Source: Deltaproteobacteria bacterium
Lineage (GTDB): Bacteria; UBA10199; JADFYH01
Direction: 5' to 3'
Length of the DNA: 64,000 nucleotides
Assembly (NCBI GenBank): GCA_015233135.1
Contig: JADFYH010000012.1
Span: 1-64,000, forward strand
How positions within the stretch are numbered: the stretch's first letter is position 1; each line of letters begins with the position of its first letter. Below are positions 3,657-64,000 of this stretch, in pieces. The notes beneath the pieces were generated by a model. The model made no database searches, was not told the DNA's origin, and worked only from the letters and a program-made list of their open reading frames with translations. The translations under genes were made by a program, and so were the position numbers.

Positions 3657-3771
3657 AAGTAACTATTTTTCGTCACCTTGAAAGCAGAGTCAATGGAAAG
3701 ATATTTAACTTGATCTTGAATGTTGAAGGAATTACGGAATCGCCTTGATTGTTTTCTTCTTTCTTAATTTT

Positions 3772-3870
3772 CCTCCCCTTAAGCTAAGGGGAGGTTAGGA
3801 GGGGTTATGGTCCACTTGCACACAATTGCCATAACGCCCCCTGACCCCCTCTTAGCTTAAGAGGGGGAGG
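3772..3870. repeat. family 1 palindromic repeat, copy 1
   Basis: A 99-bp element made of three nested hairpins: CCTCCCCTTA-AGC-TAAGGGGAGG, then an inner stem AGGAGGGGTTATGG...CCATAACGCCCCCT, then CCCCCTCTTA-GCT-TAAGAGGGGG. Two other copies lie at 55112-55208 and 56202-56322. Its right end supplies GGGGGAGG ten bases before the aspS start codon. Confidence 0.9.
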
Positions 3871-31691: not shown

Positions 31692-31728
31692 CCCCTCTCC
31701 CTCGAGGGGAGAGGGCAGGGTGAGGGTG
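31692..31728. repeat. family 2 palindromic repeat
   Basis: CCCCTCTCCCTCGAGGGGAG and the following AGGGCAGGGTGAGGG form a hairpin in the 267-base gap between DUF3999 and DUF2339. A second, inverted copy lies 100 bases to the right (31830); together they could pair into a long hairpin. Confidence 0.85.
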
Positions 31729-31829
31729 ATATTGGATGCAATTTGCATTCTTTTTTTTCTATTCTCACTTCATTATTCATTCCTTACAAAAATAGAAAAC
31801 AGACTAAAAGCTCAAATTAAATCCAGTTA

Positions 31830-31869
31830 CCCCCTCACCCTACCCTCTCCCCCGGATGGGGCGAGGGGA
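31830..31869. repeat. family 2 palindromic repeat, inverted partner
   Basis: CCCCCTCACCCTACCCTCTC faces GGATGGGGCGAGGGG, in opposite orientation to the 31692 copy. Between the two lies only AT-rich sequence. The pair occupies the 3' flank of the DUF2339 gene. Confidence 0.8.
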
Positions 31870-35802: not shown

Positions 35803-37527
35803 CTATTTTATTTTTTTGTTTCTAGAATTCTCTTCCAAAAACAATTCCGCCTGACCATTTTTGAATACCGGAGTTTCCATCGGCAGAATACCCGCAACCT
35901 GCTCCATCTTCAACAGCGCTTCTTCTGCATGCTCTGTCGCAATCTTAAGTTCTTGTTCAGCAAGGGCGGCGTCGCGGCCCAGAATTTTTGCCAGGCCTTC
36001 GAGGGCTTTTTCACGGCGGGCTTTGGGGGATTTGGTAATGCGGCAGGCTCCGTCGACTAGAATTGGAGCAAACATCTCGATGTGTTGACGCTTCTTTTCC
36101 AGGTCGGCTTCTTTGTTTTCTCGCTTGATATATTTTGACAACCTTTGACCGGCTTGAATCAGCGTGCGGCGGATTTCTTCGACGAGTTCATCGCTGGCAT
36201 CCACCGTTTCTTTGGAGGCATTTTTAAATTTAATAAAAGGAGACACCACGCTCACCGCAATAATGAAAGGTCCGAGCGGTAAACTATTTTTGGGCTGATT
36301 GAGGCCGTAAGCACGCCAATTGATCGACTCTACCGCCTTGGTCATAGCGCAGGAAGATTTATCAAATTGCAGCGGCACCCGGTTGGCAAAGCGTTGCAGG
36401 ATAACGGTCTGATCTTCGGACATATTTTTATCCAAGAGCCTGGCAATCGCCACTTCCACCAAAACGGGTTTAAAATCACAAATGGCGGGCTTGCGAGACA
36501 CCACCGAAAAGAAATCCACCTGACCTACGCGTTGGATACTCTTGGAGAGAGCCGCCTCTCCGATACTGAGTACGCTTTTGGTGGAGGGCGCCATCAGTTT
36601 TGCCTTTTGTAGCGCGGCAAATACCTTCTTGAAATCTTCTTCGGTGGCTTTATCCACACTTTTGTCAAAAAGAGTTTGGGTAATTCCGTCTTTCTTCATC
36701 TCATCCAAGACCGAATCAGAAATACGCGAAAAACCCTTTCTCAGCCAGGCGCCTAGGGAGACACGACCAAACAGATGCGAATGGGCGATAAATTCACCCA
36801 GCTTCATGGTGTGAGGGTGAGGGTCGGTAGAATCAGGAATCTCGGGCAGCACGTCGCTTACCCGTTCGATCTCTACCCAGTCTTGATCCAGAATTTTATA
36901 ACGCAGACTCAGGTGAGGATTCACCAAGGTGGTACCACTGAGGTAGGCCAGCAGTCCTCCTTCGCCATTTAATTGGATGCGGGCATCAATCACAAATTCA
37001 CAAGCGACGCCGTGATCTCTATCCCACTCAATAGCTTCCTTGGATTTCATCACCCCTTTGTTGTGCTTGATATCGACTTCTACCACACACTGGCAGGCCT
37101 TGCGCATCTTGGCCGTTTTGGTGATGATGTTTGCACCGCGCGCACTCGTCAATTGAGCCCAAGTGGTGACTGCAGAAATACCAATCCCTTGCTGACCTCG
37201 ACTACATCGGCCTCGGCCGAGTTTGGAACTGGCCAGATACTCGCCAAATACTTTAACGACCTCTTCAACCTCAAGACCCGGGCCATTGTCTTCGACACGA
37301 ATACGGATGGAATCGGCATTCTTGGCCGTGCCTTCCCCCACTTTTTCAACGAGGACGGAAATCTCCGGAAGGATGCCCGCGTCTTCGCAGGCATCCAAAG
37401 AATTATCGACGGCCTCTTTCACGCTGGTGAGCACCGCCTTGGTGTAAGAAGAAAAACCCACCTGTTGGAGGTTCTTTGAAAAATATTCGGCGCTGCTTGA
37501 GGAGGTGATGCTTTGTGCTTTTGCCAT
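35803..37527 (-). CDS. top6B: DNA topoisomerase VI subunit B
   Basis: A 574-residue GHKL ATPase subunit of a type IIB topoisomerase. The Bergerat fold shows the N box KEAVDNSLDACEDAG (catalytic E38, N42), the second motif EDNGPGLE (D80) and the glycine lid SRGQQGIGIS (109-118). Residues about 230-470 form the transducer region, with NRVPLQFDKSSCAMTKA containing the likely switch lysine. It passes duplex DNA only with subunit A (Spo11-like), which is not encoded nearby. The element at 37534-37677 ends seven bases before the start and supplies AAGAGG. Confidence 0.92.
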   Translation of the reverse strand: MAKAQSITSSSSAEYFSKNLQQVGFSSYTKAVLTSVKEAVDNSLDACEDAGILPEISVLVEKVGEGTAKNADSIRIRVEDNGPGLEVEEVVKVFGEYLASSKLGRGRCSRGQQGIGISAVTTWAQLTSARGANIITKTAKMRKACQCVVEVDIKHNKGVMKSKEAIEWDRDHGVACEFVIDARIQLNGEGGLLAYLSGTTLVNPHLSLRYKILDQDWVEIERVSDVLPEIPDSTDPHPHTMKLGEFIAHSHLFGRVSLGAWLRKGFSRISDSVLDEMKKDGITQTLFDKSVDKATEEDFKKVFAALQKAKLMAPSTKSVLSIGEAALSKSIQRVGQVDFFSVVSRKPAICDFKPVLVEVAIARLLDKNMSEDQTVILQRFANRVPLQFDKSSCAMTKAVESINWRAYGLNQPKNSLPLGPFIIAVSVVSPFIKFKNASKETVDASDELVEEIRRTLIQAGQRLSKYIKRENKEADLEKKRQHIEMFAPILVDGACRITKSPKARREKALEGLAKILGRDAALAEQELKIATEHAEEALLKMEQVAGILPMETPVFKNGQAELFLEENSRNKKIK

Positions 37528-37533
37528 AATTAT

Positions 37534-37677
37534 TAGACCTCTTGGATAACCGTCACGAGCGGTTCAAGAGCAAGGCGCGGAGGGTCCAAAACACCGGAGT
37601 TTACTACTGTAAATGAGGATGTTTTGGATACCGCAACGCCGCAATTGAATCGCGCAGTAGGTTATGCAAGAGGTCTA
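37534..37677. repeat. family 3 structured repeat, copy A
   Basis: A 144-bp element bounded by 18-bp inverted repeats (TAGACCTCTTGGATAACC / GGTTATGCAAGAGGTCTA, one mismatch) that folds on itself along almost its full length. The centre is CCGGAG-TTTAC-TACT-GTAAA-TGAGGAT. Its right terminus contains the TAG stop of the FKBP gene (minus strand), and its left terminus is seven bases from the top6B start. Confidence 0.9.
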
Positions 37678-38094
37678 TTTCACTTCAAATAACTCCACAT
37701 CAAAGATCAAATCCGCATTAGGAGGAATAGCCGCTCCAGCTCCACGAGCCCCGTAGCCTAATTTTGAAGGGATATAGAGCGTGCGTTTTCCGCCTACTTT
37801 CATTCCAGCGACTCCTTCATCCCAACCTTTAATGACCTGGCCCGCACCCAGATGAAATTCAAATTTCTGTCCGCGATCAACGGAGCTGTCAAACTTTTTC
37901 CCTTTTGCACCCTTTTCATCTAACCAACCTGTATAATGCACGCTGACCGTTTTCCCCGCAGTCGCCACGGCCCCCGTTCCCACTTTCAATTCTGCATATC
38001 GAAGCCCGCTGGGATTGGTAGTAATAGGATTGGTGGAACAAAGAGGAAGGGTAAAAAGTGAAAATAAAAAGATGAATAGAAAAATCCTTTTCAT
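37675..38094 (-). CDS. exported FKBP-type peptidyl-prolyl isomerase
   Basis: A 139-residue protein: a signal peptide (1-18, with LPLC near the cleavage site, a weak lipobox) followed by one complete FKBP domain. Family landmarks are VSVHYTGWL, FDSSVDRG, FHLGAGQVIKGWDEGVAGMK, KLGYGARG and IPPNADLIFDVEL. It speeds proline isomerisation in the envelope. Its stop codon is formed by the terminus of a family 3 repeat, and top6B follows on the same strand after that repeat. Confidence 0.93.
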   Translation of the reverse strand: MKRIFLFIFLFSLFTLPLCSTNPITTNPSGLRYAELKVGTGAVATAGKTVSVHYTGWLDEKGAKGKKFDSSVDRGQKFEFHLGAGQVIKGWDEGVAGMKVGGKRTLYIPSKLGYGARGAGAAIPPNADLIFDVELFEVK

Positions 38095-43789: not shown

Positions 43790-44923
43790 ATGAAAAAATC
43801 TTCCGCCCTGCTCCTTTATGGAGATTCCGAAAACAACGCCGACCTTTATTATGCCACCAAGTTCCTGGTTCCAGACCCTGTTTATTTTGTTCAAATCAAA
43901 AACAAAAAATATCTTTTTTTAAATGATCTCGAAGTCGACCGCGGACGAAGCGAATCTCAAGTAGATGAAGTCGTCTCCATCAGTGAGCTGACGGAGAAAT
44001 TGAAAAAGGTCAAAAAAGCAAAGGCCTTTCCCCTGCTGGAACTGCTGGAATTTTTCCTCAAAGAAAAAGGGGTTTCTGCGATCACGATCCCCCACAACTT
44101 TCCTGCTTATAGCGCGCAAAAATTAAAAAATAAAAAATTTAAACTCCAATTTCAGGCCGATCCCTTCTGGCCCACACGAGTAATTAAAAATCAGGAAGAA
44201 AAGAAAAATATTAAACTAGCGCTCAAACATACTGCCAATGCCATCAAGAGGGCCTATGCCATTTTGGCAGAATGCGGGATCAAAAAAAATCTGCTCTATT
44301 ATAAAGGCAAAAAACTGGGTTCTGAGGGTTTGCGCTCCCTCATCGATCTCTATTTGTTTGAACAGGGATGCCTCGCCCAGCAAACTATTGTTGCCGGCGG
44401 TGAGCAGGGCGTGGACCCGCACAATCGGGGAGATGCCTTATTGCATGCTCATGAGTCGATTGTGATGGATGTTTTCCCTCGTCACATCGCCAGCCGATAT
44501 TATGCCGATATGAGTCGAACGGTAGTGAAGGGCAAGGCCAGCCCCCAACTCAAAAAACAATGGCAGGCCGTAAAAGAGGCTCAGGAATGGACGATGGCCC
44601 ACCTGAAGGCAGGAGTGAATGGACGGAAAATCCATGAAGGGATCTTGAAACTTTTTGAGAAAAAGGGATTCAAAAGCGGAAATATCAATGGACGCATGCA
44701 GGGTTTTTTTCACGGGACAGGCCACGGCCTAGGCCTGGACATTCACGAGGCCCCTCGAATTTCTAAATTCGATCATACCTTGAAAGAAGGCACGGTAGTC
44801 ACAGTGGAACCCGGGCTTTATTATTCCGGTGTAGGCGGAGTGAGGATTGAAGACGTGGTTTATATTACGAAAGACGGATGCGAGATCCTGTCGAGTTGTC
44901 CGAAGATTTTGGAAATTGAGTAA
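43790..44923 (+). CDS. M24-family metallopeptidase (Xaa-Pro aminopeptidase-like)
   Basis: A 377-residue creatinase/prolidase-fold protein. Metal ligands: two aspartates in MDVFPRHIASRYYADMSRT, a histidine in HGTGHGLGLDIHEAP, and glutamates in TVEPGLYY and VRIEDVV. The N-terminal domain (1-140) has no catalytic role in relatives. It probably releases N-terminal residues next to proline, in the cytosol. It starts two bases after the kinase stop, so the two are translationally linked, although a metabolic link is not obvious. Confidence 0.9.
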   Translation: MKKSSALLLYGDSENNADLYYATKFLVPDPVYFVQIKNKKYLFLNDLEVDRGRSESQVDEVVSISELTEKLKKVKKAKAFPLLELLEFFLKEKGVSAITIPHNFPAYSAQKLKNKKFKLQFQADPFWPTRVIKNQEEKKNIKLALKHTANAIKRAYAILAECGIKKNLLYYKGKKLGSEGLRSLIDLYLFEQGCLAQQTIVAGGEQGVDPHNRGDALLHAHESIVMDVFPRHIASRYYADMSRTVVKGKASPQLKKQWQAVKEAQEWTMAHLKAGVNGRKIHEGILKLFEKKGFKSGNINGRMQGFFHGTGHGLGLDIHEAPRISKFDHTLKEGTVVTVEPGLYYSGVGGVRIEDVVYITKDGCEILSSCPKILEIE

Positions 44924-44949
44924 TTAATAGACGAGGCGCGAGCGAAGGG

Positions 44950-44984
44950 GCAACCGGAGCGTAGCAACGCTACGTGAGGATTGC
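44950..44984. repeat. family 3 core hairpin, copy C
   Basis: GCAA-CCGGAG-CGTAGC-AAC-GCTACG-TGAGGAT-TGC: the same CCGGAG/TGAGGAT core as at 37534 and 63026, with a 6-bp central stem of entirely different sequence. Surrounding bases (44931-45010) have GAGGCGCGAGCG and GAGCAACGAAG, but the outer inverted repeats of the longer copies are absent. Confidence 0.75.
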
Positions 44985-45028
44985 GACTAAGTGAGCAACG
45001 AAGTATAAAGGAATTTATGTTCTCATAC

Positions 45029-55111: not shown

Positions 55112-55208
55112 CCCCCCTCTTAAGCTAAGAGGGGGTCAGGGGGCGTTATGGCAATTGGGTGCAAATTGATCATAACCCCTCCTAACCTCCCCTTAGCTTA
55201 AGGGGAGG
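55112..55208. repeat. family 1 palindromic repeat, copy 2
   Basis: On the minus strand it reads like copy 1: CCTCCCCTTAAGCTAAGGGG, AGGAGGGGTTATG...CATAACGCCCCCTGA, CCCCCTCTTAGCTTAAGAGG. It fills the gap between trpS and scpA, four bases after the trpS stop. Confidence 0.92.
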
Positions 55209-59697: not shown

Positions 59698-59767
59698 TTA
59701 TGACTATTTTGGACTCAAGTCCATTTTAGCCATGGCTATTTTGGAGTAGAGTCCAAAATAGTCATAA
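59698..59767. promoter_or_regulatory. nested inverted repeats upstream of the phd-parE module
   Basis: TTATGACTATTTTGGACTC (59698-59716) faces its exact complement GAGTCCAAAATAGTCATAA (59749-59767). Between them lie another CTATTTTGGA (59735-59744) and the 12-bp palindrome TAGCCATGGCTA. Four ordered copies of related half-sites suggest an operator; the whole can also fold as one hairpin. It lies 81 bases before the antitoxin start. Confidence 0.6.
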
Positions 59768-62490: not shown

Positions 62491-62505
62491 ATTATAACAT
62501 AAAAG

Positions 62506-62544
62506 TCCCCTCTCCCTTGAGGGGAGAGGGTTAGGGTGAGGGTG
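62506..62544. repeat. family 2 palindromic repeat
   Basis: CCCCTCTCCCTTGAGGGGAG then AGGGTTAGGGTGAGGGTGA, 15 bases after the exported protein gene. A second palindrome of similar base content follows at 62568-62603. Confidence 0.85.
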
Positions 62545-62567
62545 ACAACTCGAAAGTACTTTGAGCA

Positions 62568-62603
62568 CCCTCCCTCCAACTCCCTCCCCTCAAGGGAGGG
62601 AGG
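62568..62603. repeat. family 2-like palindrome providing a ribosome site
   Basis: CCCTCCCTCCAACTCCCTCC faces CTCAAGGGAGGGAGG. The right arm ends in GGAGG, 11 bases before a GTG start codon at 62615. Confidence 0.75.
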
Positions 62604-62614
62604 ACTTCAACAAA

Positions 62615-63013: not shown

Positions 63014-63025
63014 AAAGAATTCTAT

Positions 63026-63168
63026 TAGATCTCTTTCATAAATCAGCGAACGGTCCAAGTGCAAGGCGCGGAGGGTCCAAAATACCGGAGTTTGCTACTG
63101 CAAATGAGGATTTTTTGGATACCGCAACGCCGCAATTGGATCGTGCAGCGATTTATGAAAGAGATCTA
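63026..63168. repeat. family 3 structured repeat, copy B
   Basis: A 143-bp element with perfect 19-bp terminal inverted repeats (TAGATCTCTTTCATAAATC / its complement), the internal GCAAGGCGCGGAGGGTCCAA and ACCGCAACGCCGCAATTG segments shared with copy A, and the core CCGGAG-TTTGC-TACT-GCAAA-TGAGGAT. Its right end contains the TAG stop of the minus-strand gene 63166-64000. Confidence 0.92.
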
Positions 63169-64000
63169 TTGGCAATAAGTTCTAGCGCTGCCCCGTCTCA
63201 GCATTTCCCATTCTGGGAATCCATAACGCTGCACCATTCCTTCGATGACGGATTCATCTACTCCCATCCTCTCTGCAAACAAGGCAATGGCATCAAACGA
63301 TTGACAGGTACTAAAGCCGGAGTCGTGTCCTAAAAAAGAGAGAAGGGAGCGAAAACGGTCACGATCGAGATGTTCCAGGGCTTCAAAAAAGCAAGCACCC
63401 GCCTCATAGGGAAAATGCCCTGCGGAGTAGAGAGAGGTATCAACAGGGATTTCAAAACTTCCTCCATCACTCAAGTTTAAGACTTGGGCCACACTAAATC
63501 CGCTCTCCCCACAGATCAGACGATAGGATTGACTCAAGTTGATATCCCGATTCAAGAGCAAGAGATTGACGGTAGACGGATCGGTTTCGTTTCTTAGCAT
63601 ACAGGAATCTCCAATACCAAAATTTCGGGTAAGGCCGGAATCCAGATGGAAGGAATCGTTCTGCCTGTCACTGCAGCGAAAAGAGAAGAGGGCTGTTGGG
63701 GTGCTGCTAATATGAATCAACTCTGTGTCTGTTCCCCGACTGAGACGAAGCAGTAATCCTCCACCCACAGGGAAATCGGCATAAAGACTCACAGACAAAC
63801 CTTGCAATGCCGGAACGGCAGGATCCAATGCCAATGCAAGCCCGGAATGATTTGCGCTACAACAGGTAAGCCTCAAGCTTGCCTCTACATGGATATCACC
63901 ACACTCCGATCCATAAGCATAATAGCAATTTCGGGCATCTGTGCTGGCGGCCTGAACCATCGGCATATTAATAGGACTTTCCAATACAGTCTGGTAAGAC
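63166..64000 (-). CDS. partial hypothetical cysteine-rich protein (5' end beyond window)
   Basis: At least 277 codons, open to the right edge of the window, so the true start lies outside. The visible part is rich in cysteine (CYYAYGSECG, LTCCSANHSG, FRCSDR, DSCMLRNE, LICGESG, CFFEA, STCQSF, TYCQ), which suggests disulfide bonds and export. A beta-rich region is followed by a helical C-terminus (DRDRFRSLLSFLGHDSG; VDESVIEGMVQRYGFPEWEM). I do not recognise it. The stop is provided by a family 3 repeat terminus. Confidence 0.65.
   Translation of the reverse strand, partial: SYQTVLESPINMPMVQAASTDARNCYYAYGSECGDIHVEASLRLTCCSANHSGLALALDPAVPALQGLSVSLYADFPVGGGLLLRLSRGTDTELIHISSTPTALFSFRCSDRQNDSFHLDSGLTRNFGIGDSCMLRNETDPSTVNLLLLNRDINLSQSYRLICGESGFSVAQVLNLSDGGSFEIPVDTSLYSAGHFPYEAGACFFEALEHLDRDRFRSLLSFLGHDSGFSTCQSFDAIALFAERMGVDESVIEGMVQRYGFPEWEMLRRGSARTYCQ

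Follow-up and report, generated by a model that had tools for sequence, protein, structure and literature searches.

A mobile, ERIC-like folded repeat with a 3-bp target in a 'Deltaproteobacteria' genome and across its class

Results

Two copies of a palindromic element lie against gene ends

The window, a stretch of 64,000 nucleotides from contig JADFYH010000012.1 of a Deltaproteobacteria bacterium (GCA_015233135.1), carries two copies of a near-perfect inverted repeat in the same orientation. With a flanking TA counted on each side, they occupy 144 nt at 37534-37677 and 143 nt at 63026-63168, which is the common 143-144 bp layout described in the original prediction. The places were correct, but the true ends lie one base further in, at 37535-37676 and 63027-63167, where a 3-bp target duplication begins, so that the element itself measures 141-142 bp. 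The features at and around the copies are as follows.

35803-37527, minus strand: topoisomerase VI subunit B gene (PF09239, E = 2.3e-45)
37532-37534, unstranded: left target-site duplication ATT of copy 1 (sequence, flank comparison)
37535-37676, plus strand: element copy 1, AGACCTCTTGGATAACC...GGTTATGCAAGAGGTCT, 142 bp (sequence, fold, flanks)
37594-37619, plus strand: core hairpin of copy 1, CCGGAGTTTACTACTGTAAATGAGGA; invariant G-U, GNA/GA loop (fold, covariation)
37677-37679, unstranded: right target-site duplication ATT of copy 1, which together with the element end remakes the FKBP gene's TAG stop
37675-38094, minus strand: FKBP-type peptidyl-prolyl isomerase gene (PF00254, E = 1.8e-36)
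44909-45026, plus strand: third core-bearing element, with different arms (R2, E = 7.6e-17)
63024-63026, unstranded: left target-site duplication ATT of copy 2 (sequence, flank comparison)
63027-63167, plus strand: element copy 2, AGATCTCTTTCATAAAT...ATTTATGAAAGAGATCT, 141 bp (sequence, fold, flanks)
63085-63110, plus strand: core hairpin of copy 2, CCGGAGTTTGCTACTGCAAATGAGGA (fold, covariation)
63168-63170, unstranded: right target-site duplication ATT of copy 2; the TAG at the junction terminates the converging gene
63166-63984, minus strand: gene converging on copy 2, ending in the element-junction TAG

The start codon of the topoisomerase VI subunit B gene is 7 bp from copy 1, and the FKBP gene, with its TAG stop at the copy 1 junction, has a complete C-terminus. 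The gene that converges on copy 2 is in a frame that stays open past the window (500 aa from stop to stop in locus L002) and had no match in a Pfam search. The core of the third element is CCGGAGCGTAGCAACGCTACGTGAGGA, at 44954-44980.

Other palindromes occur in the window. A repeat of the form CCCCCTCTTAAGCTAAGAGGGGG...CATAACC is present at 3771-3868 and 55113-55208, in opposite orientations, and is probably one of the other repeat families of the original prediction. Palindromes built on CCCCTCTCCC...GAGGGGAGAGGG lie at 31692-31866 and 62503-62607, the latter with weak, chance-like matches to Rfam microRNAs, and a nearly perfect 70-bp palindrome (TTATGACTATTTTGGACTC...) is found at 59698-59767.

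The copies are MITEs that insert at an ANT target and often at stop codons

The two window copies are MITEs, that is, mobile DNA that encodes no protein. The original prediction described their structure correctly and missed their mobile nature, which is evident from the flanks. Terminal inverted repeats are common to dispersed copies, and the 142 bp have no coding capacity, with no open reading frame of at least 100 aa belonging to the element. When the element is taken as AGACC...GGTCT, 3-bp direct repeats of the ANT type flank it exactly in 11 of 22 instances, compared with 4.1 in shuffles (as many in 0 of 5,000). The flanking types are ATT/ATT, AAT/AAT, ACT/ACT, and AAG/AAG; duplications other than ATT include ACT/ACT in L021, AGT/AGT in L005 (ACT/ACT in the sense of the gene), and AAG/AAG in L062. 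Because ATT/ATT flanks each side, TAG...CTA represents element end plus target rather than a single repeat, and the flanking TA of the original prediction consists of the outer A/T of the element together with the duplication.

Nine of 27 copies, both window copies among them, lie in or beside the stop codon of a gene, read as TAG. When the element and one 3-bp copy were removed in silico, seven of these nine cases again had a stop at that codon (P = 2e-4). A TA duplication as the sole model restored the stop in five of nine, a chance-level result, and fits worse than 3 bp. The proteins beside stop-codon insertions that were checked by Pfam (FKBP and TsaE) are full length. In eight of the nine cases the gene reads into the 3' end of the element, a count to which we attach no weight at n = 9. 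At the one locus that was compared (L053 in genome G002), relatives retain the flanking genes and no element aligned there; no base-level empty site was found, and the corresponding locus in G014, from the same genus as G002, has a diverged spacer.

No autonomous element with these ends was found in the four genomes searched, and the own genome had no match to PF01609, PF13359, or PF13340, in assemblies of a kind from which repeats are often lost. An IS5-type element in a MITE-carrying relative (L179) was considered as a partner and rejected, since its ends, AGGGCGTGTCCTCATTAG, are unrelated. Within the IS5 family, a 3-bp ANT target is the type used by the ISL2 group. Judged by target type, we infer that the mover would be a transposase most like those of the ISL2 group. 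IS5-family MITEs with an ISL2-type target resemble the element in their 3-bp ANT duplication but differ in that no partner IS with its ends was found here.

The element and its core recur across the class

The 2.61-Mb genome (64 contigs) contains about 14 copies of the full element family, one of them truncated (L012), and 24 to 26 copies of the core. The element ends, AGACCTCTTGCATAACC, are also present in genomes from other families within the class, where they bound elements of equal length whose core stem differs (GCGTAT...ATACGT). The pattern CCGNAGNGTA(4-9)TACNTGAGGA is present in 13 of 46 genomes, and a reversed control gave no matches. A covariance model of class cores (R2), whose E-values are rough owing to short calibration, placed the core in 33 of the 46 genomes, with up to 73 copies in each, which bears out the earlier suggestion that similar repeats exist in other deltaproteobacteria. 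Between families the arms vary while the core and its AGGCG/CAACG shoulders are constant. A search for plasmids returned none.

Two members of the family defined by the terminal repeats, L118 (G003:C1:68936-69146) and L119 (G002:C51:502-727), exceed the usual length of about 142 bp, measuring about 211 and 226 bp; further repeat-like DNA lies close to the 3' half of L118, which looks like a nested insertion. Copies L003, L011, and L033 adjoin tRNA genes, with L033 abutting the apparent CCA end of one. In genome G018, L032 and L036 are shortened derivatives (about 75 bp and less), of which L032 retains both ends.

The fold outlives the sequence

Both window copies fold far more stably than expected, at -75.2 and -74.5 kcal/mol (z of about -10.6 and -11.0), and none of 200 dinucleotide shuffles folded as well. 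The compensating changes on which the original prediction was based are present: in the terminal stems C-G becomes T-A at position 5, G-C becomes T-A at position 11, and C-G becomes A-T at position 17, and in the central hairpin TTTAC/GTAAA becomes TTTGC/GCAAA. Covariation is strong over many copies. Among 13 full-length copies of the own genome, 32 of 54 pairs changed on both sides, giving 94 two-sided cells compared with 25 in shuffles (0 of 500 as high) and at most 21 in slid controls. The outer arms of L010, L011, and L003 have diverged over much of their length with pairing kept. In a deep core set of 34 diverse copies from across the class, two-sided change affected 24 of 29 pairs, with 198 cells compared with 67 expected in shuffles and at most 74 in slid controls. 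The fold has thus outlived the sequence.

The original prediction read the paired changes as selection for a folded form, either RNA or cruciform. The fold is indeed kept over many copies and beyond the own genome, and the paired changes may reflect selection on RNA or on a cruciform. Matched changes in the outer arms would also follow from a transposase that must recognize both ends, and palindromes could be mended without selection through arm-to-arm templated correction. In the core, selection on the fold is favored by internal pairs that covary beside conserved unpaired or non-standard positions, namely a G-U that never varies and a GNA/GA loop. If the RNA of one strand were selected, G-U and A-C counts should differ. 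They numbered 6 and 8 in own-genome copies, which is no strand bias, and 26 and 10 in the deep set at a threshold of 0.6, a modest bias that is only suggestive, since the copies are related to one another and the RNA fold of that strand served to choose the pairs.

The core has the architecture of ERIC

R2 was built without ERIC and applied to 120 kb of Escherichia coli DNA containing three ERICs. It returned three matches, all of them ERIC, each on the correct strand and in register (E = 1.9e-5 to 3e-4), and it also scored the same ERIC locus in two further strains. None of the window's remaining long palindromes received an R2 score. A sequence-only model (R3) found no ERIC at an E-value of 10 or below in the same 120 kb; hence a common architecture is demonstrated and common descent is not. 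The likeness lies in layout and a short core motif, and convergence is possible. The match in shape makes the element a new branch of an established kind of element and not a new system.

ERIC (IRU, RU-1) is likewise a single long hairpin, of about 127 bp against 142 bp here. The element has the core features of ERIC, a GGAG...GTGA hairpin and tandem G-A, and in both repeats the core stem-loop is flanked by tandem G-A and G-U on the same strand, which is also the more stable strand in each. Both occupy intergenic sites, including the 3' ends of genes, and have TA at their ends. They differ in their outer arms, which are unrelated, and in their targets: a TA duplication is reported for ERIC (PMC2759123), whereas the element duplicates 3 bp, ANT. 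Other bacterial MITEs such as RUP and Correia/NEMIS (PMC2229807) resemble the element in being small, mostly non-coding, bounded by terminal inverted repeats, close to genes, and folded when transcribed; they differ in sequence and in the TA motif at their termini. No Rfam family matched the element at its gathering score, and ERIC itself was matched weakly, as V_AS5. Among the matches listed, a literature search with the core letters gave only chance hits in unrelated papers.

Discussion

We consider it likely that the repeat is a MITE of about 142 bp, with a 3-bp ANT target and an ERIC-like core fold, that is moved in trans and probably acts at the level of mRNA. As a non-autonomous DNA transposon with matching ends, it would insert with a 3-bp ANT duplication, mobilized by a transposase acting in trans that was not found in its own assembly. 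Insertions would be tolerated between genes and at stop codons, where they survive because the element end rebuilds TAG. Read-through of a neighboring gene would place a copy in the mRNA tail as one long hairpin. Its core (CCGNAG-stem-loop-stem-TGAGGA) would be an older fold of ERIC architecture, kept by selection on the fold, and its likeliest use would be to influence mRNA 3' ends at the RNA level, as reported for ERIC, whose copies at gene 3' ends in Yersinia alter mRNA levels in a manner for which orientation is important (PMC2229807, PMC10969869).

The main competitor, which we hold to be a real possibility though short of probable, is a selfish MITE that plays no part as RNA and brings the host no gain, and whose arm changes arise from transposase end-matching, single-stranded DNA hairpins, and arm-to-arm repair. 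Ends that are nearly unchanged across genera, own copies free of strand bias, and stop-codon sites that look like least-harm insertions all suit it. However, internal pairs of the core, remote from the ends, covary beside conserved non-standard positions, which repair would erase, and the deep set leans to G-U. The strong fold and covariation would also suit a stand-alone structured RNA, an sRNA or cis-regulator repeated by chance, but the target duplications and conserved ends, the mixed gene content and orientation around the copies, and the lack of an Rfam match make this improbable.

Less credible again is a REPIN/BIME-type repeat spread by RAYT, a Y1 tyrosine transposase. Y1 genes occur in most genomes of the class, yet their number is uncorrelated with copy number (rho = 0.05, P = 0.72), the own genome has one weak Y1 match, and the 3-bp duplications and matching ends are clear. 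In being a long, imperfect palindrome and in preferring one strand, the element recalls an integron attC-like recombination site, an identity we would almost dismiss given target duplications and copies that occur singly, scattered next to ordinary chromosomal genes, with no cassette arrays.

ERIC has been described from Enterobacteriaceae and Vibrionaceae (PMC10969869), and how small bacterial elements, including ERIC, move was an open question as of a 2007 review (PMC2229807). The element described here adds a second, independent lineage. Its clear 3-bp target, conserved ends, and numerous copies make it a place where the mover can be sought and where the parts of the fold that matter can be tested. 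Its insertions at stop codons are a neat case of an element end that mends the stop it has entered. A bolder idea, which we regard as rather doubtful, is that ERIC and the 'Deltaproteobacteria' elements form one superfamily of mobile folded repeats, with a single ancient core hairpin recognized by a common host or mobile factor, and a mover of the same kind for ERIC.

R2 also matches a repeat that lies between genes in Yersinia, Salmonella, and E. coli. This repeat, of which E. coli has about five copies per genome and which also occurs in a P2-like phage of Yersinia, shares the core CCGGAGCGTACACG.AGTACGTGAGGA with the element and differs from it in arms and length; in E. coli it is perhaps RSA. 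YPAL (RU-2) was considered as the identity of the phage element and set aside, as its published sequence (table 1b, PMC2759123) is without the core when compared by eye. In the phage, vB_YenM_42.18, the core-bearing hairpin (L166, 3079-3182) lies just after the stop codon of gpM, the terminase endonuclease gene.
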